DNA of 64,000 nt, from positions 1,083,530-1,147,529 of the forward strand of contig NZ_JAPHEH010000001.1 in the NCBI RefSeq assembly GCF_029607905.1, read 5' to 3'. Positions 6,042-57,833 of this stretch are shown here, piece after piece. The notes beneath the pieces are model-generated. The model was not told the DNA's origin. It ran no database searches and saw only the letters and a program-made list of their open reading frames with translations. The position numbers were made by a program, and so were the translations under genes. This DNA is from Thiovibrio frasassiensis. GTDB lineage: Bacteria > Desulfobacterota > Desulfobulbia > Desulfobulbales > Desulfurivibrionaceae. Every line of letters starts with the position of its first letter. Within the stretch, counting starts at the first letter, position 1.

Positions 6042-7265
6042 TTACGGTTGCGCTCTTTTTAAGCGGGTTGCCGGAAATACGTTGTTTCTCCCGAGTTTTT
6101 TCGCTTCGTACATCGCCTGATCGGCAAACTCGACGAGCCAGGTGTGGTCAGCGGTGTCTTCCGGAAACAGGGCTACGCCTATGCTGACCGTGAGCGGGAT
6201 CGTGCGGCCGTCCGGAAGCCGAAAGGAATCCGCCTCGATCCTGCTGCGGATTTTCTCCGCCACATGCAGCGCTGCCGATTGCCGGGTATCCGGGAGCAGG
6301 ACAACAAATTCTTCTCCGCCATAGCGGGCCGGGCAATCACTGCTCCTGGTCTCCCTGCTCAAGATTGCGGCAATATGCCGCAGGACCTCGTCGCCGACCC
6401 CATGGCCATGGGTGTCGTTTACCTTTTTGAAATGATCTACGTCGAGCATCAGCACGGCAAGGGAGCTTTTGTGGCGTTGACTGCGAGCGCATTCCTCGGA
6501 CAGTTGTATTTGGAAAACATTGCGGGTGAATAGACCGGTCAAGGCATCGTGGCAAACCTCCGTCTCCAGCTTGCCCGCCATCTCGTAAAACGATTTGGCC
6601 AGCTCGCCGATCTCGTCGCTGTAGTCCGTCTCCATTTTCTTGAGATTGAAGTGGCCGGTGCCCAGCGCTTCGGCTGCCCGGGACAGGTGGCGGATGGGAC
6701 GGACAATATATTCGGCAAGCAGGAGTGCGAAAAGGATGGCGATCGCTGAGCCGAGGCCGAGAATAAGGGCGATCTTCCCGCTGAGGAGTCTGATTTCATT
6801 CTCGATCCCGATATGCGAGTAGGTGAGGATGGCTGTGCCCAGGTGCACCCCTGCGGCCTCGATCGGCGCCAGGGCATCCACCACGTTTTCCCCCTTCTCA
6901 TTGCGATAATGCGCGCTGATCAGTGATTGTCCCTGCTCCGGGCAAGTCCCTGCGTATTGTTCGCCGATTTTTGTAAGGTTGCTGTGCATGACGATCCGGC
7001 AATCTTCATCCACCACCATCGCCTGGGTCACATACTCCTGGGTCATGGTGTAACGGATGTAGGTGCGGAGTTCCGCCAGATCCCTGCTGATCAGTGATCT
7101 GGCGCTGACATGGGCCAGGTCATAGGCCACCGCCAAGGCGCGGCGGTGGTTTTCGTGGTGCATTGCCTCTTTCACCCGGTAGGCAATGAACAGGCCGGTG
7201 GCAAGCTGGACGCCGACAACCAGGCCGATGAGCGGAAGGATTATCTTGGCCTTGAGGGTTCGCAT
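6042..7265 (-). CDS. membrane sensor diguanylate cyclase (periplasmic sensor-HAMP-GGDEF)
   Basis: Makes cyclic di-GMP from two GTP. 407 residues with a membrane span at about 9-29, a periplasmic sensing region (about 30-160), a second span (about 162-187), a HAMP linker starting at the RPIRHLSRA segment, and a C-terminal GGDEF domain. The active-site motif GGEEF is intact at 316-320, and the product-inhibition I-site RxxD (RSSD, 307-310) sits exactly five residues upstream, so an active, feedback-inhibited enzyme is expected. The start lies 5 bp after the stop of the PhnD-like binding protein, so the two are co-transcribed and the binding protein probably delivers the signal to the periplasmic domain. 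Confidence 0.93.
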   Translation of the reverse strand: MRTLKAKIILPLIGLVVGVQLATGLFIAYRVKEAMHHENHRRALAVAYDLAHVSARSLISRDLAELRTYIRYTMTQEYVTQAMVVDEDCRIVMHSNLTKIGEQYAGTCPEQGQSLISAHYRNEKGENVVDALAPIEAAGVHLGTAILTYSHIGIENEIRLLSGKIALILGLGSAIAILFALLLAEYIVRPIRHLSRAAEALGTGHFNLKKMETDYSDEIGELAKSFYEMAGKLETEVCHDALTGLFTRNVFQIQLSEECARSQRHKSSLAVLMLDVDHFKKVNDTHGHGVGDEVLRHIAAILSRETRSSDCPARYGGEEFVVLLPDTRQSAALHVAEKIRSRIEADSFRLPDGRTIPLTVSIGVALFPEDTADHTWLVEFADQAMYEAKKLGRNNVFPATRLKRAQP

Positions 7266-7270
7266 GCAGG

Positions 7271-8197
7271 CTAGCGGGCCATGGACATAATTTTTCTGAT
7301 TTCAGCGAAGTCCTGGTCCTGAGCCTTTACAAACCCGCCGATCTCTGCGGACTCCAGGATCTCTTCGTGGTTGTTGTTTTTCAGGGTAAGGGCGGTCAGC
7401 GCCTCGTTGAGTCGGGCAATGAGCTTGGGATCGACCTCGGCGCGGGCGGCAAAGACCCAGGTGGGAATCTCCTCGGTCTCGCCGAGAATGCGCAGCTGGT
7501 TGGGCGGGAGTTCGGTTTCGGTACCCTCTTTTGATGCGTTGATATTTTTAAAGGAGTAATCGCAGATCGCGCCGGCATCGGCGGTTTTCAGAAAGACGTT
7601 GAGGGCGATGGATTCACAGCTGCCATCGTGCTTGTAGCCCCGGAGATTCGTGTCCGGGTTGATGCCCTTTGCGGTCAGCAACCGTTTTGCCGAGAGGTTT
7701 TTTGCCATGTCGTTTTCCGCGCCGAAGATGACGTACTTGCCCTTGAGATCCTCTATGCGTTGCAGGGGGCTGTCTTTGCGAACAATGATCACCCCCCGGT
7801 GCCTGCTTTCGCCTTCCGGGGTCAGTGCTTTGAGCAGCATCTTACGGTTGTAGAGGTGGCTCAAGCGCACATAGGTATGGGGTGCCTGGAAGGCGAATTC
7901 CGCCCCTCCTGCCGTGATGAGCCGTTCGAATTCCGGGAAATCCTTGGGGATGATCAGCTTGACCGGCTGGCGGAGCTGTCGCTGCAGGTAGGCCGCCAGG
8001 GGTTGATACTCTTTGAAGGTTTTGAGGATGTCGGTGCAGGGAGTGATGGCGATCTGAATCGGTCGCGGTTTGTCGGCCGCCTCCCCTGTTTGGCTCAGGG
8101 ACAAGAGCAGAAGCAGGAGAGTCAGAATGCGCCGCAGTCCTTGCGCAGAAAGCAGGGGGGGGAAGCGGAGCAAAATGGCAACCAGATATTTCTGCAT
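7271..8197 (-). CDS. PhnD-like periplasmic substrate-binding protein
   Basis: 308 residues from the ATG at 8197, chosen over an upstream in-frame start at 8302 because AAGGAG precedes it and a secretion signal follows at once. The signal region has a basic start and a hydrophobic run ending about LSQTGEAA. The mature part begins with IQIAITPC and matches the phosphate/phosphite/phosphonate-binding family (transporter fold type 2), including the stretch that reports on a bound anion. No ABC permease or ATPase gene is adjacent. Its only partner is the diguanylate cyclase 5 bp downstream, so a sensory rather than uptake role is likely. The ligand cannot be read from the sequence. Confidence 0.85.
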   Translation of the reverse strand: MQKYLVAILLRFPPLLSAQGLRRILTLLLLLLSLSQTGEAADKPRPIQIAITPCTDILKTFKEYQPLAAYLQRQLRQPVKLIIPKDFPEFERLITAGGAEFAFQAPHTYVRLSHLYNRKMLLKALTPEGESRHRGVIIVRKDSPLQRIEDLKGKYVIFGAENDMAKNLSAKRLLTAKGINPDTNLRGYKHDGSCESIALNVFLKTADAGAICDYSFKNINASKEGTETELPPNQLRILGETEEIPTWVFAARAEVDPKLIARLNEALTALTLKNNNHEEILESAEIGGFVKAQDQDFAEIRKIMSMAR

Positions 8198-8335
8198 GAG
8201 CAGTTTCTCCTTGAGTTTGAACGATTGAGCGTGTGGTTTCACCTCTCTTGCATGTTCTGCGTGGTATGACTTTATTGTGGAGAAGATGGCGAAAACATGC
8301 AATGAAATGTTCGCCGGAAATTTTTAAGGGGATAT

Positions 8336-9214
8336 TTATCGGGGCGGGGCGGCGATCTCCCAGAAGGCCAGAATTTTTTGGTTGCGCAGGTTCTTTTTCG
8401 CGGTGCAGACTCCCAGGGAGAAGGGAGCGAGTTGGGGGGAGATATCGAGTACCGTGATTTGCTCCTGAAGGGGGCTTTTTTCCAAGACCAACCCAGGCAC
8501 CACTCCTACCCCGCAGCCCAGGCTGACCATGGCGATGATCGCCTCGTTGCCCGCCACCTGGGCGTAAATGTTGGGCAGGATCTTTTTTGCGGTAAACCAG
8601 CGGTCGAGCCGCTCTCGGCCTAACCCCTGTTCGGCCACAATCACCGGGGTTTTCCGCCAGTCGATCTCCGAGTCTTCATAAATAACCGTCTCGGGAAAGG
8701 CCAGCGGTGCGATGAAGACCAGGGGCGTTTCGGTGAGCGCCATGAATTCCAGGGTGTTTGCCTGCTTGTCCGGCAGGGCGTCGATGATCACCTCTACTTC
8801 GCCGTTGCGTAACCGAGTCAGTCCTTGGGCCGCGTCGCCGGTCTGCAGCTTGATGTGCACCTCCGGGCAGGAGGAGCGGAAGCGGTCGAGGATTTCGGGC
8901 AGGATGGAGTAAGCCGCGGTGACCGAACAGTAGAGGGAGATGTCGCCGTGCAGGGTTGTATTGTCGGCCAGACTCTCTTTGAGTTCCTGCCAGCGGTCGA
9001 TGGTTTCCTCGGCATACTGCTTCATGGCCTCGCCAGCCTTGGTCAAGCGCACCGAGCGGTTGTCCCGGTCAAAGAGGCGTTCCCCCACCTCCGCCTCGAT
9101 GCGCTGGATGGTGCGGGTCAGGGCCGAGGGCGTCACATGGCAGGCGCGGCTGGTGCGGCCGAAGTGCAGGGATTCGGCCAGGTGGCGAAAGAGCTTGAGT
9201 TCCTCCATGTCCAT
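8336..9214 (-). CDS. ilvY: LysR-family regulator IlvY
   Basis: Activator of ilvC that responds to acetohydroxy acid substrates in E. coli. 292 residues from the ATG at 9214 (GGAG at 9222-9225 on the complementary strand); the open frame extends further upstream but without family similarity. The LysR winged helix-turn-helix occupies about residues 1-60 (FRHLAESLHFGRTSRACHVTPSALTR begins it). The effector domain keeps recognisable IlvY stretches: CSVTAAYS, TGDAA and a late GCGVGVVP. It is divergent from ilvC with a 131-bp intergenic region carrying a palindrome, the arrangement known in enterobacteria. Confidence 0.93.
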   Translation of the reverse strand: MDMEELKLFRHLAESLHFGRTSRACHVTPSALTRTIQRIEAEVGERLFDRDNRSVRLTKAGEAMKQYAEETIDRWQELKESLADNTTLHGDISLYCSVTAAYSILPEILDRFRSSCPEVHIKLQTGDAAQGLTRLRNGEVEVIIDALPDKQANTLEFMALTETPLVFIAPLAFPETVIYEDSEIDWRKTPVIVAEQGLGRERLDRWFTAKKILPNIYAQVAGNEAIIAMVSLGCGVGVVPGLVLEKSPLQEQITVLDISPQLAPFSLGVCTAKKNLRNQKILAFWEIAAPPR

Positions 9215-9226
9215 GGCATATCTCCA

Positions 9227-9251
9227 ATTGTTGCAATTTGCGCAATACAAT
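9227..9251. promoter_or_regulatory. probable IlvY operator
   Basis: A 25-bp imperfect palindrome, ATTGT...ACAAT, whose core TTGCAATTTGCGCAA (9231-9245) fits the LysR T-N11-A rule. It lies just upstream of the ilvC -35 box and just in front of the ilvY start, as expected for a site that both activates ilvC and autoregulates ilvY. Confidence 0.7.
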
Positions 9252-9267
9252 ATCGCGAACAAGTCAC

Positions 9268-9295
9268 TTGACGCAACAGAAAATACCGCTATGAT
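9268..9295 (+). promoter_or_regulatory. ilvC: ilvC promoter
   Basis: TTGACG (9268-9273), 16-bp spacer, TATGAT (9290-9295). This is a good sigma-70 match, 50 bp upstream of the ilvC ATG and immediately downstream of the probable IlvY site. Confidence 0.75.
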
Positions 9296-9345
9296 GGGGC
9301 GAGGTATAAGAAAAAACATATTTCCAATACGATAAGGAGAAGACA

Positions 9346-10818
9346 ATGGGAGAGAATTACTTCAACAGCCTGCCGCTGCGTTTGCAGCTTGATGAGCTTG
9401 GTCAGTGCCGCTTCATGGACTCTTCCGAGTTCAACGGGGTTAAGGCGCTCAAGGGCAAGAAAATCGTCATTGTCGGCTGCGGCGCCCAAGGGCTGCACCA
9501 GGGGTTGAATCTCCGGGACAGCGGCCTCGATGTTTCCTATGCCCTGCGCGAGGAAGCGATCAAAACCAAGCGTCAGTCCTATAAGAATGCGCACGGCAAC
9601 GGCTTTACCGTGGGCACCTTCGAGCAGTTGATCCCCAAGGCCGATCTGGTCATCAACCTCACCCCGGACAAGCAGCACACCAAGGTGGTCTCCGTTATCA
9701 TGCCGCTGATGAAGAAAGGGGCAACCCTCTCCTACTCCCACGGCTTCAACATCGTGGAAGAGGGCATGGAGATCCGCAAGGATCTCACGGTCATCATGGT
9801 TGCGCCCAAGTCCCCCGGCACCGAGGTGCGGGAGGAGTACAAGCGCGGCTTCGGCGTGCCCACCCTGATCGCGGTGCATCGTGCCAACGACCCCCAAGGC
9901 AAGGGGTGGGATCTGGCCAAGGCCTATGCCTGCGGCACCGGCGGCGACCGGGCCGGCGTCCTGGAGTCTTCCTTTGTTGCCGAGGTCAAGTCCGACCTGA
10001 TGGGCGAGCAGACCATCCTCTGCGGCATGCTCCAGGCCGGCTCCTTGCTGTGCTACGACAAGATGATCGAAAAGGGCATGGAGAGCGGCTATGCCTCCAA
10101 GCTGGTTCAGTTCGGCTGGGAGACCATTACCGAGGCCTTGAAGCACGGCGGCATCACCACCATGATGGACCGCCTCTCCAATCCGGCCAAGATCAAGGCG
10201 TTCTATCTCGCCGAGGACCTCAAGGAGATCCTGCAGCCGCTCTTTGAAAAGCATATGGACGACATCATGAGCGGCCATTTCTCCAAGACCATGATGGAAG
10301 ACTGGGCCAAGGACGACAAAAACCTCCTCAAATGGCGGGCGGCCACCGCCAAAACCGCCTTTGAGAAGTCCACCTCCACCAAGAAGAAGATCAATGATCA
10401 GGAATACTTCGATAACGGCATCCTGATGGTGGCCATGGTCAAGGCCGGGGTTGAGCTGGCCTTCGACACCATGGTCTCCGCCGGGATCAAGGAAGAGTCC
10501 GCCTACTACGAGTCGCTGCACGAGGTGCCGCTCATCGCCAATACCATCGCGCGGAAGAAGCTCTACGAGATGAACGTGGTCATCTCCGACACCGCCGAGT
10601 ACGGCTGCTACCTCTTTGCCCACGCCGCCGTGCCCATGCTGGCCAAATTCATGAAGAAGATCGACACCGATGTGATCGGCAAGGGTCTGGCCGTCAAGGA
10701 CAACGGGGTGAGCAACGTGGAGCTGGTCCAGGTCAACGAGGCGATCCGTTATACCGGGGTCGAAGAGGTCGGCGCGGAACTGCGCTCCTACATGGGAGCC
10801 ATGAAGCCCATTATCTAA
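9346..10818 (+). CDS. ilvC: ketol-acid reductoisomerase, class II (long form)
   Basis: Second step of valine/isoleucine synthesis: Mg-dependent alkyl migration and NADPH reduction of acetohydroxy acids. 490 residues, the length of enterobacterial and plant class II enzymes, against about 330 for the class I form. The N-terminal Rossmann motif is [19 protein letters not shown], and the duplicated C-terminal knotted domain carries the metal-binding acidic residues ([19 protein letters not shown] region). Recalled alignment with E. coli IlvC is close throughout. AAGGAG lies at 9331-9336, 9 nt before the ATG. The gene is alone, with its own regulator, promoter and terminator. Confidence 0.98.
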
Positions 10819-23991: not shown

Positions 23992-26900
23992 ATGTTTGAA
24001 GAATGGCAACGATTGGAGCAGGACGGAATCCCGGTATATGTGCAGCCGGAAAAGCCGGACTGGTTCGTGCCCGATCACCTGGCCGACTGCTTGTTGCAGG
24101 AACTGCAACAGGGGGGGAATTATGGTGCCGATAACGAGTCATCTGAAAAAGATCTTTCTCTCCGGAGACTGACGCGCCAACGACTTGTCTCCCAGCTTGG
24201 TGACGGGGCGGTTGCTCCGTACCCTGGCCGATACCCACTTCTTGCCCTGAACAGTCTGAAGGAATGCTGGTTTCACCTCACCGACCGCTGCAATCTGGCT
24301 TGTCGTCATTGTCTGTTCGGCGCTTCCCCGGCCCAGGCGGCCACCCTTACCCCGGAGGCCTTGGCCCAGGGTATCGGGGAGGCCAGAGATCTTGGTTGCA
24401 CCCTCTTCTATTTCACCGGCGGCGAACCTTTTGTCTATCAGGGGTTTGTCCCCATGGTGGCCGAGGTGCTTGCTGAGCCAGAGGTCCATGTGGTGGTGCT
24501 CAGCAATGGGTTGCTGATCCGGGAACACCTCGGCGCGCTTATATCCTTGCCCAGGGAACGATTCCATCTGCAGCTCAGCATGGATGGGCTGGCGGAGCAG
24601 CATGATGCCTTACGCGGCAAGGGCACCTTTGCCGGATTGCTGGAGAATTTGGAATTGCTCAAGGAAGCGGGTTTTCCGGTGACTCTGTCCGTGGCGGTGA
24701 ACCGGAGCAATGTTGGCGAATTGGCTGAGCTTGTCGCCTTTGCCGCCGATCGGGGGATCGATAATATCCATCTGCTCTGGCATTTTGTCCGGGGCAAGGG
24801 GAGTCTGGAGCAGTTCGTCTCCCCTGCCCAGATTCTCCCCGAGCTGATCCGGGCCCAGGAGATGGCGGAAAAATGCGGGGTGCGCATCGACAATGTGGAA
24901 ACCCTGCGCAGTCAGGTATTCAGCACCCCCTCCACTCGGCATGATCTCTCCAACACGGCTTGGGAATCACTGGCCGTGGGGCCGGACGGCATGATCTACC
25001 CCTCTCCAGCCCTGGTGGGCATGGCGGACTTGGCCTGCGGCGCTTTGGCCGATGGGTTGGAAACGGTTTGGCGCCAGAGCCCGGTGCTGGAGAAGATTCG
25101 TAAGGCAAGCCTGCTGGCAAGCGAGCGTTATCTGGCAAACCCCTTGCGTTTTTTGGTGGGCGGAGGTGATCTGGATCACAGCTACCTGGCCGGCGTTGCT
25201 CTGGTTGGGCACGATCCCTATGTGGAGTTATACAATACCCTGGCCCTTTGGCTGATCAGCAGGCAGGCCCGTCAATATCCCGTGCGCACCCAGGGGGAAA
25301 TCCTCCTGCGCATGGGCGAGGTGCGCTACGATTGCCCGGATGGTGGGCAGGAGGTGGCGCTCACCCATTGCAACTGCGTGCTCTCTCTCTCCGATGACCA
25401 AGGACACGCCATGGTGCGGGAGTTTTACGGGAGGGCCGCCATAACCGCCAACGAGGAGATCGTCAATCCCTTTGCCCCGGACCAGGCCCTGGCCAATTTT
25501 ATCCCGGCCGATTCCCGGAAGAAATCCTACGGTTGCGGCAGTCCGGTCAAGGATGCCGAGCCGCAACCCGGTGAGGTGCTGGTGGACCTGGGGAGCGGCA
25601 GCGGGGTCGAGTGCTTCATGGCCGCAGCCAAGGTGGGGCCATCCGGGCGGGTGATCGGCATCGATATGACCGAGGAGATGCTCCATCTGGCCGGGGTGGC
25701 CAAGGCAACGGTGGCGAGCCGACTGGGCTATGACAATGTGGAGTTCAAAAAAGGGTTTCTCGAAGATATTCCCCTGCCGGACACCACTGCCGATGTGGTG
25801 ATTTCCAACTGCGTGATCAATCTCAGTCCGGACAAGCGGCAAACCCTGCACGAGATCTTTCGGATTTTGAAGCCGGGCGGCAGATTGGTGGTATCCGATA
25901 TTGTCACCGACGAACCCATTCCGGTGGCGATCAAGAATAACGAGCAGTTCCGGGGCGAATGCCTGGGCGGGGCGCTCAGGCAGGAGGATCTGCTGGCTAT
26001 GCTTCGGGGGGCCGGATTTGCTGGAGTCAGCCTGATCAAGCGGTTCCCCTATCGGGTGGAAGGCGAAACCCGCTTCTATTCCCTCACCTTTCGGGCCTAT
26101 AGGCCGGAAGAGGAGCGGAAGGTCGAGGTCATCTACCGGGGCCCGTTTGCGGCGGTGTGGACGGAAAGCGGGGCGCTGCTCCTTAAGGGGGAGCGCACGC
26201 AGGTGGCCTTAAGCGAGGCGGAAAGCCTGGCGGAGTCCCTGTTTGTCCTCGATGGGCAGGGGGCGGTGACCAACCTGGCCCAGGAAAATAGCTGCTGTGC
26301 GCCATCAAGCGAGGGACCTCTGCGGCAAAGCGGCAGCTGTTGCGACACCGGGCAGAAGGAGGCGCCAAGTAAGATTATTGCCCTTCCCTCTCTGCGCCAG
26401 CCCGTTGGCGGCCGGCATCATTCCGGCTGCATGGCCTGCGGCAAGGAGATCGGCTATCTCGCCCATGAGCGGGAGGTTGCCTGCCATTATTGCGGCGGGG
26501 TCAAGAGAACCAATGCTGTCTGCGTTGAAGGCCATTACATCTGCGATGGGTGTCATCAGCAGGACGGCCTCTCCGCCATCCGGCTGCTCTGCGCTGAAAC
26601 AAAAGAACAGGATATGCTGCTTTTGTTGGATACGATCCGCCGCCATCCCGCCATCCCCCTGCATGGCCCGGAACACCATGCCATGGTCCCCGGTATTATC
26701 CTGGCCACCTACCGGAACCTCGGTGGCCAGATCAGTCGGGAAGACATCCTTACCGGCATTGAGCGGGGCAGCAAGGTGCCGGGCGGGGTCTGCGGTTTCT
26801 GGGGCAATTGCGGGGCGGCCGCCGGGGTTGGCATTGCCTTCAGCGTTCTGCTTGCGGCCACACCGCTGACTCCTAAACCCCGCCAACAGGTGCAGGAAAT

Positions 26901-27132
26901 CACTTCCCGGGTGTTGGGTGAGATCGCATTGACGCAGGGAGCGCGTTGCTGCCAGCGGGAAACGGTCACGGCCCTGCGGGAGGCCGCGCTTCTCTCCCGC
27001 CACCTTCTGCCGATATCCCTTCTGGCCGAGGCCGATTTTTTCTGTAAACAGTTTTCCACCAATCGGGAATGTATCGCTGGCCAGTGTTCCTTGTGGCCCA
27101 AGGCGGTATTACAGGTAGGGGGCCGACAATGA
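23992..27132 (+). CDS. trifunctional fusion: radical SAM enzyme, ArsM-like methyltransferase, DUF5714-like domain
   Basis: About 1046 residues from the ATG at 23992 (GGGAG 8 nt upstream; in-frame starts at 23953 and 23887 are possible). Residues 95-330 are a radical SAM domain with CNLACRHC (C100, C104, C107) and the FTGGEP motif. Residues about 500-750 resemble arsenite methyltransferase ArsM: YGCGSP (C515), DLGSGSG and IGIDMTEEML for AdoMet, SNCVINL (C607), GECLGGA (C657), then cysteine pairs at 768-769 and 783-784. Thus all three arsenic-type cysteines are kept. Residues about 808-1040 are a cysteine-rich DUF5714-like domain (GCMACGKE, CHYCGG, CGFWGNCGAA). A VTT membrane protein overlaps the stop. 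A metalloid substrate is inference. Confidence 0.85.
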   Translation: MFEEWQRLEQDGIPVYVQPEKPDWFVPDHLADCLLQELQQGGNYGADNESSEKDLSLRRLTRQRLVSQLGDGAVAPYPGRYPLLALNSLKECWFHLTDRCNLACRHCLFGASPAQAATLTPEALAQGIGEARDLGCTLFYFTGGEPFVYQGFVPMVAEVLAEPEVHVVVLSNGLLIREHLGALISLPRERFHLQLSMDGLAEQHDALRGKGTFAGLLENLELLKEAGFPVTLSVAVNRSNVGELAELVAFAADRGIDNIHLLWHFVRGKGSLEQFVSPAQILPELIRAQEMAEKCGVRIDNVETLRSQVFSTPSTRHDLSNTAWESLAVGPDGMIYPSPALVGMADLACGALADGLETVWRQSPVLEKIRKASLLASERYLANPLRFLVGGGDLDHSYLAGVALVGHDPYVELYNTLALWLISRQARQYPVRTQGEILLRMGEVRYDCPDGGQEVALTHCNCVLSLSDDQGHAMVREFYGRAAITANEEIVNPFAPDQALANFIPADSRKKSYGCGSPVKDAEPQPGEVLVDLGSGSGVECFMAAAKVGPSGRVIGIDMTEEMLHLAGVAKATVASRLGYDNVEFKKGFLEDIPLPDTTADVVISNCVINLSPDKRQTLHEIFRILKPGGRLVVSDIVTDEPIPVAIKNNEQFRGECLGGALRQEDLLAMLRGAGFAGVSLIKRFPYRVEGETRFYSLTFRAYRPEEERKVEVIYRGPFAAVWTESGALLLKGERTQVALSEAESLAESLFVLDGQGAVTNLAQENSCCAPSSEGPLRQSGSCCDTGQKEAPSKIIALPSLRQPVGGRHHSGCMACGKEIGYLAHEREVACHYCGGVKRTNAVCVEGHYICDGCHQQDGLSAIRLLCAETKEQDMLLLLDTIRRHPAIPLHGPEHHAMVPGIILATYRNLGGQISREDILTGIERGSKVPGGVCGFWGNCGAAAGVGIAFSVLLAATPLTPKPRQQVQEITSRVLGEIALTQGARCCQRETVTALREAALLSRHLLPISLLAEADFFCKQFSTNRECIAGQCSLWPKAVLQVGGRQ

Positions 27133-27818
27133 CACCGGGAAGGCATGATAAAAAAGGGGTTGGCAAGGCGGTTGTTTTTGGGTTGTTTATTACCGGCATG
27201 ATCGGACTGTTTCGCTTCAGCCCGGTGCGGGAATACATTGCCCCGGACTATCTGCAAAGCCTGGTGCATTCCTATGGCCCTTGGGGTCCGGTGGTCTTTG
27301 TGCTTCTCTATGCTGGCGGCATCTGCCTTTTTCTGCCCGCCACCATGTTCACCGGCATCGGTGCCCTGTTGTTCGGCACCTTCTACGGGTTTCTCTACAA
27401 TGAACTGGGCGCCATGCTCGGCGCCTCCATGGCTTTTTTCATCGGCCGGTACCTGGGGCGGGATTTTGCCGCAGGCTTAATCGGCGATCGGCTGAAAAAA
27501 TACGATGACCGGATCGCCGCCAACGGTTTCTCGACGGTGCTCTACCTCCGATTGGTTTTTTTCCCCTTCACCCCGCTCAATTTCGGCATGGGTCTGACCA
27601 GGGTGACCTTTCGGGAGTATTTCTTCGGTACCCTGTTCGGCATCATCGCCGGCGGCTTCGTCCTCACGTTCTTTTTTGCCACCCTGGCCGAGGTGTGGAG
27701 ATCCGGCGACTGGTGGCAGCTGCTGAGCTGGAGGACTCTTTTTTCTCTGGCCCTCTTTGTCGGCTCCTTCTTCATCCCCAGGGTGATTCAAAAAATCAAG
27801 CCCGAGGCGGCAGGCTAA
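27129..27818 (+). CDS. TVP38/TMEM64 (VTT) family membrane protein
   Basis: 229 residues; the ATG overlaps the stop of the upstream fusion (ATGA), so the two are translationally coupled. At least five hydrophobic segments are visible, with the VTT/SNARE-associated core: FLPATMFTGIGALLFG, a glycine-rich loop with FIGRYLGRD, and RLVFFPFTPLNFGMGLT. DedA/VTT proteins are membrane transporters or scramblases, and members are often linked to metal or metalloid loci. Coupling to the ArsM-like enzyme suggests export or handling of its product; this is inference. Confidence 0.9.
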   Translation: MTPGRHDKKGVGKAVVFGLFITGMIGLFRFSPVREYIAPDYLQSLVHSYGPWGPVVFVLLYAGGICLFLPATMFTGIGALLFGTFYGFLYNELGAMLGASMAFFIGRYLGRDFAAGLIGDRLKKYDDRIAANGFSTVLYLRLVFFPFTPLNFGMGLTRVTFREYFFGTLFGIIAGGFVLTFFFATLAEVWRSGDWWQLLSWRTLFSLALFVGSFFIPRVIQKIKPEAAG

Positions 27819-50041: not shown

Positions 50042-51034
50042 ATGGCAGTTATCGAAAAAAGAGGACCCTACCAATGGCGGGTCAAAATTCGTAAAAAGGG
50101 TTGCCCCACCCAAACTATAACCAAGAAATCAAAAAAAGAAGCCGAGGCCTGGGCGCGTAAGGTTGAATCCGAAATAGAGCGCGGCGTTTTCATTTCTAGT
50201 AGCGCTGCAGAGCAAACCACAATTGCTGAGGTTCTCGACCGTTATGAAAGGGAAGTTTTTCCGCGTTTGGCCGATGGCGGGAAAAGAGAAAGCTTCCGCT
50301 TAACCCTCCTCAAAGCCCACTTTGGCCCCCTCTCTCTTGCTGCCCTGCGCAGTAACCATGTTGCGGCTTTTCGCGATCAGCGTCTCAAGCAAGTTTCTGC
50401 ACAATCAGTAAAGCACGAGTTGGGCCTTCTCAATCGAACTCTGAAATTTGCCCAAATCGACTGCGGCATCCATATTCCGCACGGTCTGCCGACCACCCAA
50501 ATCCGTATGCCCAAGTTGCCGGCCGGTCGGGATCGTCGGTTACGTGACAGCGAAGAACAGCGTCTCATTGAGGCGGCAATAGCCTGTAAAAGCAAGGAAA
50601 TTGAAAACATCATCTTGTTTGCCCTGGAAACGGCAGCGCGGCGTAGCGAGATTGCCGCCATGCGATGGGAGCACGTTGATCTCAAAAGGCGAATATGGGT
50701 CATCCCTTTTTTAGAAACGAAAAAAAGTCCCAGGACAGTTCCTCTTTCTCCAAAGGCCAAGGAAATTTTAGAAAGCCTTCCCCGTCGGATCGATGGAAGC
50801 GTCTGGGGGATGGCAGAGGACAGCATCACCCAAGCCTTTGGCCGGATATGCCAGCGGGCGGGAATTGACGACCTGCGTTTTCATGATCTTCGTCACGAAG
50901 CGACCAGTCGCCTTTTCGAGAGGCCGGGATGGGGAATAATGGAGGTGGCTAGTGTCACCGGTCACAAAACCCTTACTATGCTGAAACGCTATACCCATCT
51001 ACGCGCTGAGGATTTGGCGGTGAAGATGGGATAG
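50042..51034 (+). CDS. int: tyrosine recombinase/integrase
   Basis: 330 residues. It catalyses site-specific insertion and excision. An N-terminal SAM-like core-binding domain (about 55-140) precedes the catalytic domain. The active-site residues are readable: Arg in ETAARRSEIAAMRW, His-x-x-Arg in FHDLRHEAT, the second His in VTGHKTL, and the nucleophilic Tyr in KRYTHL. It lies 103 bp inside attL, the usual place for the integrase of an element in a tRNA gene, and probably recognises the tRNA-Arg core plus the TGGGACAC boxes. Confidence 0.95.
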   Translation: MAVIEKRGPYQWRVKIRKKGCPTQTITKKSKKEAEAWARKVESEIERGVFISSSAAEQTTIAEVLDRYEREVFPRLADGGKRESFRLTLLKAHFGPLSLAALRSNHVAAFRDQRLKQVSAQSVKHELGLLNRTLKFAQIDCGIHIPHGLPTTQIRMPKLPAGRDRRLRDSEEQRLIEAAIACKSKEIENIILFALETAARRSEIAAMRWEHVDLKRRIWVIPFLETKKSPRTVPLSPKAKEILESLPRRIDGSVWGMAEDSITQAFGRICQRAGIDDLRFHDLRHEATSRLFERPGWGIMEVASVTGHKTLTMLKRYTHLRAEDLAVKMG

Positions 51035-51082
51035 CCATTTCCTTTTAGCCTCATTTTTTACACTTTACACCGCCCTTATCAG

Positions 51083-51100
51083 TTGTTATACTTGTTATAC
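51083..51100 (+). promoter_or_regulatory. toxin-antitoxin operator/promoter
   Basis: TTGTTATAC is repeated in direct tandem (51083-51091, 51092-51100), ahead of AAGGAGG at 51114-51120 and the antitoxin ATG. The second repeat can serve as a -10 box. Tandem half-sites are typical of autoregulating ribbon-helix-helix antitoxins. Confidence 0.55.
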
Positions 51101-51126
51101 AAAAAGCATCGATAAGGAGGACGAAA

Positions 51127-51339
51127 ATGCTTGCGGTAAGACTTGAACAGGAATTGGAAGCCGAGCTCACAAAGCTTGCCGTCGCAACTGGACGCAGCAA
51201 GAGCTACTATGTAAAAGAGGCGTTGACCTCTTATCTTCAGGATCATGCAGATTATCTGCTTGCTCTTGCTGCCTTGGAGCGGCAAGAGCCGCGCACCAGT
51301 CTTGCTGATGTGAGGAAAGAACTTGGCTTGGCGCGTTGA
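51127..51339 (+). CDS. ribbon-helix-helix antitoxin (RelB/ParD-like)
   Basis: 70 residues. The N-terminal half is an RHH fold (MLAVRLEQELEAELTKLA, then GRSKSYYVKEAL), which dimerises and binds DNA. The C-terminal half (LERQEPRTSLADVRKELGL) would wrap the toxin. Its last 17 bp overlap the toxin frame, the common arrangement for coupled antitoxin-toxin pairs. It should stabilise the element in its host. Confidence 0.88.
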   Translation: MLAVRLEQELEAELTKLAVATGRSKSYYVKEALTSYLQDHADYLLALAALERQEPRTSLADVRKELGLAR

Positions 51340-51589
51340 ATTTCTTGAGAGCGCCAAACGGCAGCTAAAAAAGATCGACAGGGCTTGGCAAGAGAAGATA
51401 TTGGATTATCTTGAGGATGAGATTGCCATATTGGACGATCCTCGCACACGGGGAAAAGCCTTGGTTGGCGACAAACGTGGCCTCTGGCGATATCGAGTAG
51501 GGAATTATCGGATAATCTGCGATATCCAAGATGGAGATTTTGTAATTGCGGCAATCACAATCGGGCACCGGAAAGACATTTATAGCTGA
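51323..51589 (+). CDS. RelE/ParE-superfamily toxin
   Basis: 88 residues from a TTG at 51323 overlapping the antitoxin end. It has the RelE/ParE fold, with VEFLESAKRQLKKIDR at the start, a central PRTRGKALVGDKRGLWRYRVGNYRI, and the terminal basic AAITIGHRKDIYS. The arginines and the R-Y-R run match active RelE-type mRNA interferases, although a ParE-like gyrase target cannot be excluded. Confidence 0.9.
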   Translation: MAWRVEFLESAKRQLKKIDRAWQEKILDYLEDEIAILDDPRTRGKALVGDKRGLWRYRVGNYRIICDIQDGDFVIAAITIGHRKDIYS

Positions 51590-51627
51590 CCAGCAGACCT
51601 TGGCGAAATTATTTTTTCAGGTGAATA

Positions 51628-51900
51628 ATGATTGATATTCTTGGTTATATTAATTTTGGTTATTGGGTTTCATCTGTATTATTGTTGGGGTTCGTGATAT
51701 TTTTATGGAAAAAAAAGAATGATATTTTAATTAATTACAATAGGAAGATGCCACCGCCTGTTCTTTTTAATATTGGCATCGGCATTGCCATCGTTTCTTT
51801 TCTTATTATTACAATCTCTTCTTTGCGAGTGGCGGTTGAAAAGAAAAACGAGGCTAATGAAGCGCAACAGATTGAAGTGAGAGAAAGGCTTTTTCGATAG
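51628..51900 (+). CDS. small membrane protein, unknown
   Basis: 90 residues, markedly AT-rich compared with the host genes. Two membrane helices (about 9-28 and 45-66) flank a basic segment (WKKKNDILINYNRK). The tail is charged and helical (VEKKNEANEAQQIEVRERLF). The start has an AGGTGA-type site. It precedes another orphan gene by 13 bp. Unrecognised. Confidence 0.6.
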   Translation: MIDILGYINFGYWVSSVLLLGFVIFLWKKKNDILINYNRKMPPPVLFNIGIGIAIVSFLIITISSLRVAVEKKNEANEAQQIEVRERLFR

Positions 51901-51913
51901 AAAGGAGTAGATT

Positions 51914-52258
51914 ATGGGCCAAGAAGTCATACTCCGCAATGCTGTCCGTGAATATCTTTGTTACCAACATGAAGGCGCGAAGCGGCTTCTGGAGTTGTTT
52001 GGGGTGGTTGAAGACGCTCTGCAAAAAGGGCCGCTATCTCGGGAGCAAATAATCAAGATTATTAACCAGGGCCTTGCCGAGTCCCCAGGCTTTAGTGATC
52101 CGCAAGACCTGGAGGCCGAAATCGCTGTGCAACTTATGCGATTTCAGCGAGCAACTGGAAGGAAGATTGAAAAGGTGAATTGCGTTCGGAAAGATTACGA
52201 CACAGAGAGCTTCCCTTGTTGGGTGGCTGATATTGTATTTGCGGAAACTCAAAAGTAA
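51914..52258 (+). CDS. hypothetical protein, element cargo
   Basis: 114 residues; the ATG is preceded by AAAGGAG. Soluble and mostly helical, with an N-terminal stretch (RNAVREYLCYQHEGAKRLLEL) and a C-terminal segment with two cysteines (VNCVRKDY, FPCWVADIVF). I cannot assign it. It forms a pair with the preceding small membrane protein. The 230 bp after it hold no supported gene. Confidence 0.55.
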   Translation: MGQEVILRNAVREYLCYQHEGAKRLLELFGVVEDALQKGPLSREQIIKIINQGLAESPGFSDPQDLEAEIAVQLMRFQRATGRKIEKVNCVRKDYDTESFPCWVADIVFAETQK

Positions 52259-52489
52259 TCCGTGGTTATCCTCTCCCTTCTCTGCTTTTAAAATCTATGC
52301 CCCTTCCTTACAAGCTGAGCCGCAGGCGAGGCAGCGGAGCGTCAACAGGCTTTCCCCTGTCGGATTTTCTCCAGTTTCTTCCTCTGGCCTCCCCACAACC
52401 GCATGTCTCCCTTTTCAGGCACCGCCAAAAGCGGACTATGGCCGAAGCAATCAAGCGCGGTATGGCGCTGTCAAAGCTAACTTTCCCCC

Positions 52490-52684
52490 TTACTTCTCAG
52501 ATGAAGACTTCGCAACCGCACGATAATGCTCGTTAAGCCGTTCGAAGTACTGCTCTCCCGTGATCTTGCCGGAGAGCCAATCTTCCTGAGAGGCGATAAG
52601 CTCAGGAGGACCATTCGGCGGCTCAATTCCTTCTAAAGCTGCACTTGCCAGGGCCTGTTTGTAAGCTTCTCTGAGAGTTTCCAT
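52490..52684 (-). CDS. VbhA-like antitoxin (Fic inhibitor), no Fic partner visible
   Basis: 64 residues. The segment ASAALEGIEPP contains the (S/T)xxxEG motif by which class I Fic inhibitors block the AMP-transferase active site. The following PPELIASQEDWLSGKITGEQYFERLNEHY fits the VbhA C-terminal helices. GGAAG lies 8 nt before the ATG. A Fic protein (HPFxxGNG) would be expected beside it, but none is encoded in the element. It is either an orphan, or an immunity factor against a Fic toxin elsewhere. Confidence 0.7.
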   Translation of the reverse strand: METLREAYKQALASAALEGIEPPNGPPELIASQEDWLSGKITGEQYFERLNEHYRAVAKSSSEK

Positions 52685-52735
52685 GTCTTTTCTTCCGTGG
52701 CATCTTGGCGGTTATGTTTACTCACTACAATGTTT

Positions 52736-53482
52736 TCAATTAGGCGGCTCAGGATAAATTATCCGGCCAATCTCGCTTATGTCTCTATAGAAAATACCCT
52801 CTGTTCGAGTCAGATGATCAATCTCATTGGAAATCCCAGAGACAACCAGATCATCATTTAACTTTACACAACATTCGTAGTTGTGCCTAAAGGCAACTTT
52901 GGTAAAATTTACAGAACCGACAAAAGCTACTTCTTCATCTATTACATATAGCTTAGAATGTATGAAGAAATGTTTATCGTCTATTTTTTGATCATAGGGA
53001 GAAACAAATACTCCAAAATCAAATCTTGTGTCATATGTATAATTGAATATGCGTATTTGCTTGACTGAATTGAAAAAGAACAAAAATACTGGTGTAGTAG
53101 CAAAAGACCATAATAATTTATGGTGGTTTGTGTTGTAACCGACAACCCCAACAACAATTGAAGTAACAATCAATAGTGCAGAAAAGAGCATCCAGTCCTT
53201 TCTTCTTTTCTGGCTGTCGGTGTCTAGGTGTTGTTGTTGTGTAATAATTTTCTTATAAATTTCGCCGCGTTTTTCGACATTATTCGCCATGTCGCTCCCC
53301 GTCCGAAGCAACACCCGAACTCCTCTAGCAGTAGCGTCAAGCAACAAGTCAATATACTCAGGAGAAACATAGGGAGAAACCATCTTAATGGTTCTTTTGG
53401 CGGATTTAATACAATGATAAATATCGTCCCCTGCATTTTGCCCGATAAAAATATTATAATCACCCGTGTGGGTTGACAGCAT
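52736..53482 (-). CDS. PLD-like protein with an internal transmembrane insertion
   Basis: 248 residues. The fold is of the phospholipase D/Nuc type. The only complete catalytic motif is HSKLYVID (HxKx4D) followed by FVGSVNFT near residues 175-195. The N-terminal half (KMVSPYVSPEYIDLLLDATARGVRVLLRTG) is the usual first-lobe scaffold without an HKD motif. Between the lobes lie two hydrophobic helices (about 97-116 and 124-140). Active Nuc-like enzymes dimerise through single motifs, so activity is plausible. A role in defence or exclusion is inferred only from its cargo position. It is AT-rich, with GGGGAGAG before the ATG. Confidence 0.75.
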   Translation of the reverse strand: MLSTHTGDYNIFIGQNAGDDIYHCIKSAKRTIKMVSPYVSPEYIDLLLDATARGVRVLLRTGSDMANNVEKRGEIYKKIITQQQHLDTDSQKRRKDWMLFSALLIVTSIVVGVVGYNTNHHKLLWSFATTPVFLFFFNSVKQIRIFNYTYDTRFDFGVFVSPYDQKIDDKHFFIHSKLYVIDEEVAFVGSVNFTKVAFRHNYECCVKLNDDLVVSGISNEIDHLTRTEGIFYRDISEIGRIIYPEPPN

Positions 53483-53496
53483 ACTCTCCCCTTTTT

Positions 53497-55023
53497 CTAT
53501 TTTCCTTGTGTCTTGCCCAAGCTGCGACTCAAGGTCTGTTGGTGCTGTTTCAGCATCGTTTGGGCCGCTTCCCTAACCTTAGGTCTGACCGGTGCCAGCC
53601 GTACCATTTTTTGCGCCTGAAGAATGCCTTTTTCGATTCCGAGGGCCTGCTTTTCCAAAATCCGACGATTCTGTACCCGATCCAAAGCGCCCCTAGGCAA
53701 TTCCCCGGAAATCGGATTTCGCAATTCCCTGTATCGCTCACCGAAATTCTCCACTTCTTTGGCCAGCCGGTCAAGGAATTTGTCAGTTTCCCTATCAATC
53801 GAAACCCCTTTCATCAATCTACTATGCTGACGCAGTACGTCAAGAGCAAGCTCCTTATCAGGCTTACTGGCCTCACTTTTCTTGATCGCTTCCCGCGCAA
53901 GGGCAATATCGCGGGCCGTGCGTTGTTCCAGGCCCGCAAGATATTTCTCTCGGCTTTTCAATTCTTGTCTGGAAAGATGGATAGCAGCAGCCTTGGGCTT
54001 CGGGTTGGTCAATTCGTTTATCAGTTCCCGATATTGCAATGCCTCTCTGCCTAGGCTGCGGACAGTGCTTTCAATTTGGGTTTGCAAGTCCGGCTCGGAC
54101 TTTAAGAGCGCCCGCTTGATATTTCGTGTTTCACCCATAAGCATGGCGCGTTCTGGGCTTTTGGATTTGGTAATTTTCTTGATCTGCTCGTTAAGCCGTA
54201 TGACGGTCTCAAGAATAGCCTCCCGATGCTTCAATGCGTTTACGTCCGGTGCTGCCTTTTCCATCTGGATTCTTAGCCAGTTTTCTTTCTGCCGTAGTTT
54301 TTTTATGCCAGTGTCGATTTCCGCGCGTATCGCCGCCGTGTCCTTCGGTCTATCCCGTTGCAAGGTCGCCACATGGTCAAGGCCAACCTCCCGAAGCGCT
54401 CGGGCGAAGTGGTCACGGATCACAAACAAGTCCGCAGGGTTAAGCTTGAATTTTTTTCCACCTTCCCGGTGGTGGTTTCTCACCAGGATGTGAACGTGCG
54501 GCTTGTCCGCATCCTGGTGCAGCCCTATCAGGTAATCGTATCCCTTCGCGCCAAAATGCTCCTGAGCAACCTCGCGGGCAGCGGCCAGGGTACGGCGCCG
54601 ATTCCGTGGCGTATTGTCCGCACCGGCAGAAAAAACAATGTGCGTTACATCGCGGGGTGGGCGTTTGGTTCCCGGGTTGGCCCGTTCAAAGTCCTTAGCC
54701 CATTCCTCAAAAATCTTTTGAATATCCCCTTGCCCGCGATAGATAAAGCCACCATGATCTTCAAGTTCTATCTCCTGACTTGGGTCGATGTCCTTGCCGA
54801 TGCGCCCAATGTATTCCATGAGCAAACGAGCCTGAGAGCCTCGTGCGAAAGAAACCACCTTAACAACGGCCTCAGGTCCGCCCTGGTGAGTCGCCTTTAC
54901 GTAGTTCGGCGAGGACAGCCTGAGCCGCAAAGCCGCAGCAGCGCTGTTGTGACTTTTGCCTCCCCTCTTCGCGTGCGGGGCCTCCTGTTCGTGGTCCTCA
55001 CGCGCTCTTTCTGAGGTCTTCAA
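53497..55023 (-). CDS. relaxase, MOBP/VirD2-like
   Basis: 508 residues from a TTG that overlaps mobC by 26 bp; the true start may lie further in. The N-terminal relaxase domain has a candidate catalytic tyrosine in LLMEYIGRIG and the metal-binding three-histidine motif in LHQDADKPHVHILV. The C-terminal half (about 230-500) is long and helical with coiled coils. It would nick the element at oriT and pilot the strand through a helper's T4SS. MobC lies just upstream and the iteron/repeat region upstream of mobC is the probable oriT. Confidence 0.88.
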   Translation of the reverse strand: MKTSERAREDHEQEAPHAKRGGKSHNSAAAALRLRLSSPNYVKATHQGGPEAVVKVVSFARGSQARLLMEYIGRIGKDIDPSQEIELEDHGGFIYRGQGDIQKIFEEWAKDFERANPGTKRPPRDVTHIVFSAGADNTPRNRRRTLAAAREVAQEHFGAKGYDYLIGLHQDADKPHVHILVRNHHREGGKKFKLNPADLFVIRDHFARALREVGLDHVATLQRDRPKDTAAIRAEIDTGIKKLRQKENWLRIQMEKAAPDVNALKHREAILETVIRLNEQIKKITKSKSPERAMLMGETRNIKRALLKSEPDLQTQIESTVRSLGREALQYRELINELTNPKPKAAAIHLSRQELKSREKYLAGLEQRTARDIALAREAIKKSEASKPDKELALDVLRQHSRLMKGVSIDRETDKFLDRLAKEVENFGERYRELRNPISGELPRGALDRVQNRRILEKQALGIEKGILQAQKMVRLAPVRPKVREAAQTMLKQHQQTLSRSLGKTQGK

Positions 55024-55372
55024 TCACTGCCTCCAAGAGTTGTCGTGCCTCCCAAAATTGTCGCCGCAAATCAAAATGGACTTGGGCTAGTTCCGAGGTG
55101 TCCAGCGTGTCATGCACATTGAAGAAATGGGCAAGTTGATTGAGATTGTTCCCGGCCCTGTGAAATTCAGCCCGCAAGGCCAGGAGGTCCACCCGAAGGC
55201 CCGCCGTGTCTTCAATCCGCTGGGCGTTGTCCTGCAAATATAACTTGAGGGCGCGGCGAATTACCTGGGCAGGTTTGACATTTTCCTGCTCGGCACGTTT
55301 CAGCAAAGGCCCGGCTAAATCGTTTAGCCGGATGCTCGGCGTGGCCGAATATCCTTTTTTTGTCTGTGCCAT
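54998..55372 (-). CDS. MobC-like mobilisation accessory protein (RHH)
   Basis: 124 residues with AAAGGA 9 nt before the ATG. The N-terminal part is ribbon-helix-helix-like (SIRLNDLAGPLLKRAEQENV), and the middle has the GNNLNQLAHFFN motif characteristic of MobC/MbeC proteins that load the relaxase at oriT. It overlaps the relaxase start and is transcribed away from the iteron region, which it probably binds. Confidence 0.85.
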   Translation of the reverse strand: MAQTKKGYSATPSIRLNDLAGPLLKRAEQENVKPAQVIRRALKLYLQDNAQRIEDTAGLRVDLLALRAEFHRAGNNLNQLAHFFNVHDTLDTSELAQVHFDLRRQFWEARQLLEAVIEDLRKSA

Positions 55373-55578
55373 TTGTCTTGTCCTTTGGCCGGGTTCCCTT
55401 CAGGGAAGGCCAATCTTTTTCGGGTGCTGTCCCCCGAAAAAGCGGGAAAAAGCCGAAGGCGACACCTAATTGTGCCACAATTAGGGTATCCCGCCTTTTG
55501 AAAACAACGATCAAAAGCGTCGCTTTGAGACCACTTTTATCCTTTAGGGGGCTTTTCCTTGTGCTTTTTCAGATTGGC

Positions 55579-55675
55579 CAGACTGCTATAAGGCTATTTC
55601 AACCCGCTAGAAGGTCATTTCAACCCGCTAGAACCAAGTATCAACCCGCTAGAAGCCCAAAAGTCCCTGCTATAC
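55579..55675. repeat. 21-bp-phased iteron array, candidate oriT or control region
   Basis: Three exact 13-bp copies of CAACCCGCTAGAA start at 55600, 55621 and 55642, a period of exactly 21 bp (two helical turns). Degenerate copies sit in phase on both sides: CAGACTGCTATAA at 55579 and GTCCCTGCTATAC at 55663. The array lies 227 bp upstream of mobC in a stretch (55373-55796) that holds no gene. Confidence 0.8.
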
Positions 55676-55724
55676 CAAAAACCAAACCGATGGGTTCATC
55701 TTGTTTGGCCTGTGCGTATATTTT

Positions 55725-55833
55725 AGAAATTTTCCTGGTAGGTATGCGCATCATTCCATGAAATCCATAACCATCTAGAATTATGATATTTTTTATTCAC
55801 TTTTTCAGAATTTCCCTGGTAGGTATGCGCATC
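55725..55833. repeat. direct repeat in the mobC upstream region
   Basis: CCTGGTAGGTATGCGCATC occurs at 55734-55752 and 55815-55833, 81 bp apart, and the similarity extends left (AGAA-TTT). With the phased iterons beside it, this is the likeliest site for the origin of transfer. I do not recognise a canonical nic sequence. Confidence 0.6.
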
Positions 55834-56186
55834 CCCGGAAGAGCTTGATTGCAAGAGGCTTTCCGGGGTCTGATTCCCTGCGGTTTTCCGGTTACAGGGG
55901 GGCATGAAAGGAGGAAAGCGCGAAGGAGAAGAATTTTCCTGTTTCTTTCCGTGATAAAATGTGATGCTCCAGGGGCCGAATCCGTCACCATGTTGGCATC
56001 ATTTTTTGGGCGACTTTTTTTATGCCTCCAGTGGCAAATAAAAATACAACACCCGGAATCAGCCTTTAGGCCCGCTACCATGAATTTTTCGCAGACGGTT
56101 GGGGTCTTGCATGATTGGCACTCCTGGGGATACTGCTCAGGGAAAACGGGCTGGAACGGGACTTTTTTTTTCTTGGTGGTTGCCAT
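55797..56186 (-). CDS. cysteine-rich small protein, unknown
   Basis: 129 residues from the ATG at 56186 (GAGGA 8 nt upstream). The N-terminal half carries clustered cysteines (QECQSCKTPTVCEKF, then SGCCIFICHW) that could bind zinc or a cluster. The C-terminal half is basic and less convincing, and it reads through one of the direct repeats. The start is 12 bp after the previous gene in a tight operon, which supports translation. It might extend from the T4SS fragment's operon. Unrecognised. Confidence 0.5.
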   Translation of the reverse strand: MATTKKKKVPFQPVFPEQYPQECQSCKTPTVCEKFMVAGLKADSGCCIFICHWRHKKSRPKNDANMVTDSAPGASHFITERNRKILLLRAFLLSCPPVTGKPQGIRPRKASCNQALPGMRIPTREILKK

Positions 56187-56197
56187 ATCAAAGATCC

Positions 56198-56554
56198 TCA
56201 AAAGTAATTGAACAGCACAACAACGACACAGCCTATTGCCAGCCACTTGATAAGGCGGTCAATGGATTCACGAAGAGGAAGCACGTTTTTTTCAATTACA
56301 CTGCGCTGTTCTTCGCTAATTTCACATTTAGGCAGCCAGTGTGCTTGTATTGCCAATGCTGCCCTAAAGCCGCCGAGGCCGGCGCTCGTTGCGAGAACAA
56401 TCATAACAAAGTCAAATAGCCCAGGGCGGCCTTGAGGAACGGGCACAACCGCTTTCCAAGCGGGGGGCAATAAGACGGCGATTGTTACGCCGACAGTTAA
56501 TACAGCCATGCACAGGCCCGTCATCTTGTAATAGTTTCCGCGTGTCTGTTCCAT
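56198..56554 (-). CDS. small membrane protein downstream of trbL
   Basis: 118 residues with GGGAGA before the ATG and only 2 bp after the trbL-like stop. Three hydrophobic segments are visible (about 11-31, 45-66, 97-117), with a charged loop EISEEQRSVIEKNVLPLRESIDRL between the last two. I do not recognise it. Its position in a trbJ-K-L-like run suggests a T4SS accessory or exclusion protein. Confidence 0.65.
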   Translation of the reverse strand: MEQTRGNYYKMTGLCMAVLTVGVTIAVLLPPAWKAVVPVPQGRPGLFDFVMIVLATSAGLGGFRAALAIQAHWLPKCEISEEQRSVIEKNVLPLRESIDRLIKWLAIGCVVVVLFNYF

Positions 56555-56556
56555 GT

Positions 56557-57741: not shown

Positions 57742-57833
57742 TATTCCGCCCCCAATATTTTACGGAAATCCTTTCCGGTCAAATTTTGAGGGTCATATCC
57801 CTTTTTCCTTAAATCCCTTGCCGCCCACCCTTC
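57741..57833 (-). repeat. duplicated C-terminal tail, copy 1
   Basis: Encodes the last 30 residues of the trbK-position protein. At DNA level it matches 58019-58114 with scattered, mostly synonymous changes. It reads EGWAARDLRKKGY...TGKDFRKILGAE. Confidence 0.85.

Follow-up and report, generated by a model that had tools for sequence, protein, structure and literature searches.

A fused gene in Thiovibrio frasassiensis and its homologues

Here, we describe a gene of Thiovibrio frasassiensis that encodes, in a single chain, a radical S-adenosylmethionine (radical SAM) domain, an ArsM-type methyltransferase and a cysteine-rich DUF5714 domain, and that overlaps a gene for a VTT-family membrane protein. 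It lies in what we call the window, a 64,000-nucleotide stretch of assembly GCF_029607905.1 (contig NZ_JAPHEH010000001.1, 1,083,530-1,147,529, forward strand), from whose first letter positions are counted below. We put at roughly 65% the probability that this fusion serves as the central enzyme of an organoarsenic pathway of the arsenosugar type, in which it replaces the separate ArsM and ArsS proteins.

The frame, single-copy in its genome, runs from an ATG at 23992 to a TGA stop at 27130-27132; it stays open upstream as far as a GTG at 23887, and since homologues align from residues 1-5, the ATG is supported as the start. A first-pass annotation, made from the letters alone, had read into this one frame a CNLACRHC motif, ArsM motifs with three arsenic-type cysteines, cysteine pairs and a DUF5714-like end, together with an ATGA overlap with the VTT gene, and all of these are present in the sequence (Table 1). 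The profile search that it proposed for the three regions placed each above its curated Pfam cut-off (given in brackets after the bits), namely Radical_SAM over residues 96-250, the class I methyltransferase Methyltransf_31 over 526-672 (109.3 bits (27)) and DUF5714 over 863-1034 (198.7 bits (26.2)), and VTT_dom likewise passed in the neighbouring protein. The full-length structure model is weak, with a predicted local distance difference test score (pLDDT) of 62.

The three-domain layout was found in 34 of 395 Desulfobacterota genomes, a few of the copies being incomplete or split, and also in named metagenome-assembled genomes, one of them from Planctomycetota, with identity falling to about 40%; because it recurs in this way, the fusion is neither a chance frame nor an assembly artefact. 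An alignment of 43 fusions has 164 positions that are at least 97% conserved, including all the radical SAM and ArsM catalytic cysteines. Cys100, 104, 107, 448, 462, 515, 541, 607 and 657 are invariant, as are, wherever the DUF5714 part is present, 14 cysteines within it (Cys813, 816, 831, 834, 844, 851, 854, 934, 940, 986, 987, 1018, 1027 and 1032). Natural variants include two chains that stop after ArsM (L050 and L054, 780 and 783 amino acids) and two genomes (G156 and G218) with DUF5714 on a second, adjacent open reading frame, either a true split or a frameshift. A generic radical SAM protein, or a maturase of ribosomally synthesised and post-translationally modified peptides (RiPPs), fused by chance was rejected as an explanation on the layout, the invariant cysteines in all three parts and the arsenic-specific context.

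Table 1. Features of the fusion gene and the adjoining VTT gene (window positions)
Feature	Position	Strand	Evidence
Radical SAM-ArsM-DUF5714 fusion gene, 1046 amino acids	23992..27132	+	Open frame and translation; single chain in most of the 34 fusion-bearing genomes
Radical SAM core, residues 96-250	24277..24741	+	PF04055, 81.6 bits, cut-off 29.5
CNLACRHC, CX3CX2C motif for the S-adenosylmethionine (AdoMet) [4Fe-4S] cluster, residues 100-107	24289..24312	+	Invariant in 43 homologues
Degenerate SPASM region, residues about 320-425	24949..25266	+	Alignment with L151 and standalone radical SAM/SPASM homologues
Radical SAM C-terminal tail motif, Cys448 to HCNC462	25333..25377	+	Both Cys invariant in 43 fusions
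ArsM-type methyltransferase domain, residues about 465-770	25384..26301	+	NF008823, 231 bits, E 1.7e-68; tree; fold matches
Cys515, equivalent of CmArsM Cys72	25534..25536	+	Alignment with 4kw7/4fr0; motif YGCGSP
Cys607, equivalent of CmArsM Cys174	25810..25812	+	Alignment with 4kw7/4fr0; motif SNCVINLS
Cys657, equivalent of CmArsM Cys224	25960..25962	+	Alignment with 4kw7/4fr0; motif GECLGGAL
Cys pairs 768/769 and 783/784, end of methyltransferase part	26293..26343	+	43-homologue alignment
Cys-rich Zn-ribbon-like hairpin and DUF5714 helical bundle, residues 805-1034	26404..27093	+	PF18978; structure model
VTT (TVP38/TMEM64, DedA-like) membrane protein gene, 229 amino acids	27129..27818	+	PF09335, 72.2 bits, cut-off 33.9; ATGA overlap

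An arsenic-type methyltransferase domain

The three cysteines singled out in the first-pass annotation align with Cys72, Cys174 and Cys224 of CmArsM, the arsenic ligands of that enzyme (PMC3877260), and do not vary among the homologues. No better match to non-metalloid methyltransferases lacking these cysteines emerged: arsenite methyltransferases (ArsM/AS3MT) account for the five best sequence matches in the PDB and for the top 13 by fold, and the best NCBIfam model is that for arsenite methyltransferase, NF008823, whose whole-protein cut-off of 263 bits is reached neither by the fusion nor by related standalone ArsMs. In a tree of 103 sequences, built by a quick method with support from the Shimodaira-Hasegawa-like approximate likelihood ratio test (SH-aLRT) only, the ArsM domains of the fusions form a single clade (support 100) nested in a larger one (99) together with ArsMs from genomes that carry ArsS and from Nitrospinota; many of the Nitrospinota genes adjoin a VTT gene. 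Outside this larger clade fall 50 generic ArsMs.

A radical SAM domain of SPASM descent

The CX3CX2C motif and the PF04055 match place the first domain in the radical SAM superfamily, and its sequence relationships indicate SPASM descent rather than descent from ArsS (TIGR04167, curated cut-off 300 bits). A profile of the fusion radical SAM domains gives 222 bits to a related fusion (L151) and 163-181 bits to standalone proteins of about 520 amino acids, compared with at most 127 bits for other SPASM proteins and 34-60 bits for ArsS. Conversely, the fusion frames score about 60 bits against TIGR04167, aligning only over its first 150 or so positions, and a search of the window genome with that model gave no match above cut-off (best E 1.5e-13). 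A diverged ArsS was thus discarded as the identity of this domain on the profile scores and the tree, in which ArsS is a separate clade. The cysteines for the SPASM auxiliary clusters are lost in the aligned fusions (YPC to YPS, GGGC to GGGD, and others), and among the radical SAM proteins compared only the fusion clade has lost them.

Three of these standalone relatives (L188, L189 and L190), which do not reach NCBIfam equivalog cut-offs, share with the fusion a homologous core and a tail motif whose last residues are [H/Y]xC (Cys448 to Cys462 in the fusion); they differ in being encoded by a separate gene, in keeping some SPASM cysteines and in being joined to neither ArsM nor DUF5714. Their kinship with the fusion is suggested by the gap in profile scores and by this shared tail. 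They occur in genomes without ArsS, in operons that carry a TIGR04169 or TIGR04169-like gene (NCBI 'arsenosugar biosynthesis-associated peroxidase-like protein') and, where the contig reaches, TIGR04283 and in one case TIGR04282, the last two being NCBI 'arsenosugar biosynthesis glycosyltransferase' families. L151 (G016:C26:11467-28198, minus strand 7992-10475), from a genome with both glycosyltransferases, is an 828-residue chain that likewise runs from radical SAM/SPASM into ArsM; unlike the fusion it lacks DUF5714 and keeps both its SPASM cysteines and the LCC cysteines of its methyltransferase, and it matches PqqD and, with a score close to the cut-off, SPASM. Its ArsM groups with those of ArsS-bearing genomes, and L151 may therefore be independent, in which case radical SAM and ArsM may have been fused on two occasions.

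The cysteine pairs and DUF5714

At the junction with the third part, Cys768 and Cys769 are conserved in 39 and 41 of the 43 homologues, and the 783/784 pair in about half. The DUF5714 region was modelled as a cysteine-rich hairpin followed by a helical bundle (pLDDT 78.8; predicted template modelling score, pTM, 0.74); Foldseek gave no match to it with an E of 0.001 or less, and the highest VIA-align Z, 4.8 to PrpD, is within the noise for helical bundles, so no fold is claimed. A domain of this type is also found in the MbdU metal-binding double selenoprotein model (NF045648), which gives 127.8 bits over residues 780-1036, far below its cut-off of 600; the fusion has cysteine in place of selenocysteine throughout. 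That the fusion is itself a selenoprotein, as the MbdU and ArsM-UU models might suggest, was rejected, the gene containing no in-frame TGA. DUF5714 is a general accessory domain, because it is also found alone near unrelated clusters.

At two loci (L155 and L156, genomes G252 and G208) a standalone DUF5714 gene for 268-272 amino acids adjoins genes for a molybdenum hydroxylase, an AMP-ligase-like protein and a methyltransferase, a cluster of the DVU_1551-1557 type. At another (L142, G029:C2:168580-187648) an additional DUF5714 gene for 230 amino acids lies directly upstream of the fusion, at 6990-7682 after re-orientation.

Neighbourhood of the fusion

Flanking genes were counted at 39 fusion loci, 52 generic ArsM loci and 20 ArsS loci. 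VTT genes flank 12, 0 and 8 of these, respectively, MerA-like flavoproteins 12, 1 and 4, and glycosyltransferases 10, 0 and 5. Because these counts match those of ArsS and not those of generic ArsM, the neighbourhood of the fusion is that of ArsS and not of ArsM in general. The coupling to VTT proposed in the first-pass annotation is accordingly recurrent, though not special to the fusion, and VTT as a partner unique to it was discarded; three close relatives of the window locus (L044, L045 and L051) have no downstream VTT gene. L044 has another VTT and MerA-like pair upstream of the fusion.

More distant fusion loci combine TIGR04282 and TIGR04283, both above cut-off, with a VTT gene and the MerA-like flavoprotein, which scores below the MerA cut-off (372 vs 454 bits). 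One such locus (L122) reads, on one strand, GT283-GT282-FUSION-VTT-MerA, while an ArsS locus (L203) reads GT282-GT283-VTT-MerA-ArsS-ArsM, again on one strand, and another (L154) ArsM-ArsS-MerA-VTT; at some loci, then, the fusion sits in the ArsS and ArsM slot of an otherwise similar operon. In the window genome the TIGR04282 and TIGR04283 genes are five bases apart at G000:C1:803445-804681, distant from the fusion.

The ArsM and ArsS pair, as in Synechocystis (SsArsM/SsArsS), resembles the fusion in its ArsM clade, its radical SAM partner, its place in the operon and its associated genes. It differs in comprising two chains instead of one, in a radical SAM protein of the TIGR04167 family and in the absence of a DUF5714 domain, and the fusion for its part lacks the Cys44-type cysteine.

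Co-occurrence with arsenosugar genes and probable replacement of ArsS

Across the 395 genomes, ArsS was above cut-off in 119 and the fusion present in 34, the two being nearly mutually exclusive, with one genome holding both. TIGR04283 was above cut-off in 29/34 fusion genomes (85%) and 98/119 ArsS genomes (82%) but in only 41/243 with neither (17%; fusion vs neither, Fisher p = 9e-15). To allow for the non-independence of genomes within a family, the comparison was repeated within families holding both states, where 11 were observed and 4.7 expected (stratified exact p = 2e-5); in the clearest such family (f45), TIGR04283 is present in all three fusion genomes and the single ArsS genome and in none of the eight with neither. 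TIGR04282 follows the same pattern (33/34 fusion genomes vs 12 of a sample of 50 genomes with neither, p = 5e-12). ArsS itself is found in 1/34 fusion genomes compared with 118/361 others (p = 6e-5), and the exclusion persists within TIGR04283-bearing genomes (p = 1e-13, here with a looser E of 1e-42 for calling TIGR04283). We read the gene as a fused, non-orthologous replacement for ArsM and ArsS.

A proposed arsenosugar-type pathway and its alternatives

Arsenosugar synthesis begins with steps in which SsArsS acts together with SsArsM (PMC8552651), ArsS being the enzyme that adenosylates arsenic (PMC12159101). The first-pass annotation had drawn on this pathway as a comparison, and it fits both the genome context and the placement of the fusion within the clade of ArsMs from ArsS genomes. 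Its proposal of methylation followed by an AdoMet-radical transfer is supported, by the ArsM clade and the context, as far as the joining of an arsenic ArsM to an AdoMet-radical step. The pathway assignment is well supported, and the radical product and the roles of DUF5714 and VTT are what we infer in addition. By homology and its conserved residues, the ArsM part would bind As(III) or methylarsenite through Cys515, Cys607 and Cys657 and methylate it with AdoMet. Judging from context, the methylated As(III) would then be passed on, inside the same chain or over a short distance, to the radical SAM domain, where the [4Fe-4S] cluster on Cys100, Cys104 and Cys107 would cleave a second AdoMet and a radical group join the arsenic, most likely 5'-deoxyadenosyl because the fusion takes the place of ArsS. 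More speculatively, the trivalent arsenical might be held, passed on or reduced by Cys448, Cys462, the 768/769 pair and, in DUF5714, Cys986, Cys987 and the cysteines of the Zn-ribbon. The TIGR04282 and TIGR04283 glycosyltransferases, encoded elsewhere in the genome, would complete the glycoside, and the VTT protein and, in other genomes, the MerA-like flavoprotein, both associated with the fusion, may aid transport or redox.

Several observations weigh against this assignment. Two fusion genomes (G228 and G371) have no TIGR04283, and 41-43 genomes (e.g. G036, G053, G131 and G184) have TIGR04283 with neither ArsS nor fusion; as the standalone radical SAM/SPASM homologue is found in only some of these, TIGR04283 may have further radical SAM partners or further uses. 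The 'arsenosugar' names of TIGR04282, TIGR04283 and TIGR04169 themselves appear to be based on association with ArsS. No glycosyltransferase adjoins the fusion in the window, none of its domains attains any NCBIfam whole-protein cut-off, and the radical SAM tree does not resolve how the fusion and standalone clades join. The catalytic roles given above are drawn from homology and context. Finally, the fourth usual ArsM cysteine, Cys44 of CmArsM, is missing from every fusion examined, which read I-N where related ArsMs have LCC, and As(III) itself may therefore not be the substrate. In CmArsM, Cys44 is reported to act at the same step as Cys72. The C72A variant of that enzyme loses As(III) methylation and retains methylation of trivalent monomethylarsenic, MMA(III) (PMC3877260). 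Taken together, these points suggest either that methylarsenite is the substrate or that another cysteine of the chain stands in for Cys44.

Among other explanations, the fusion could belong to the same class of arsenic pathway but transfer a different AdoMet fragment, such as 3-amino-3-carboxypropyl, giving a new organoarsenical instead of an arsenosugar precursor. Arsenic-directed radical SAM enzymes can use this group, as ArsL, a protein separate from its ArsM, does in arsinothricin synthesis (PMC8552651), the radical SAM domain of the fusion is not orthologous to ArsS, and the arsinothricin ArsM model also picks up the ArsM part, with a score under the model's cut-off. We nevertheless think this unlikely: the arsinothricin cluster arsQML lacks the two glycosyltransferases that the fusion shares with ArsS as partners, and the fusion and ArsS are mutually exclusive. 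It is more doubtful still that the chain is a detoxification methyltransferase whose radical SAM part acts on a protein or peptide to modify it, or is no longer catalytic, the association with arsenic glycosylation being incidental. The clue here would be ancestry, as among solved structures the closest radical SAM folds are those of the RiPP maturases SkfB and SuiB, and the loss of SPASM cysteines and the PqqD and SPASM matches of L151 point the same way. However, the invariance of CX3CX2C, GGEP and further residues of the core makes loss of catalysis improbable, next to the loci examined no gene for a precursor peptide was noticed (without a systematic search), and the glycosyltransferase and ArsS-replacement patterns would go unexplained.

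Least probable, in our view, is that the arsenic label is wrong and the substrate a thiol or another soft element (Se, Sb, Hg or Te), with the MerA-like and VTT proteins serving general metal handling. The excess of MerA-like genes at fusion loci over controls and the presence of DUF5714 in the MbdU model and beside a molybdenum hydroxylase cluster would suit such a role, but the flavoprotein is below the MerA cut-off and flanks ArsS as well, and the ArsM motifs and the three cysteines are preserved in a domain nested among ArsMs of ArsS genomes.

An arsenosugar-type role thus remains the preferred reading, and the fusion probably represents a second route to arsenic-carbon bonds, assembled independently. 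A more far-reaching version, which we advance tentatively and would not yet favour, is that a single protein chain methylates arsenic in successive steps and then forms a C-As bond with a radical from a second AdoMet, its SPASM-derived radical SAM domain having evolved arsenic chemistry independently of ArsS and ArsL, and DUF5714 being a third module integral to the protein, which carries the arsenical, reduces it or acts as a processing enzyme, so that toxic trivalent intermediates are never released; the product may then be a new organoarsenical. A literature search, which left most subscription papers outside its scope and is hence weak evidence of novelty, returned no paper mentioning DUF5714 and none combining arsM, radical SAM and fusion; it found only ArsS and ArsL named as arsenic-directed radical SAM enzymes forming C-As bonds, and no arsenosugar report for the Desulfobacterota, a largely anaerobic phylum.

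Other features of the window

By eye, a 727-residue frame at 61754-63937 on the minus strand appears to join a cysteine synthase (CysK/CysM-like) and a cysteinyl-tRNA synthetase in a single chain, and consecutive integrase, relaxase-like, VirB6/TrbL-like, VirB5-like and DnaC/IstB-like frames at about 50042-59634 resemble an integrated conjugative element.

Implications

If the proposed role is correct, the fusion would represent a third lineage of arsenic-directed radical SAM enzyme, fused to its own methyltransferase, in the Desulfobacterota, and would offer a one-gene system in which to test the coupling of methylation and radical transfer on arsenic. It would also give DUF5714 its first functional setting, and its gene would serve as a marker for organoarsenic synthesis in anoxic sediments, a process that a search for ArsS would miss there.

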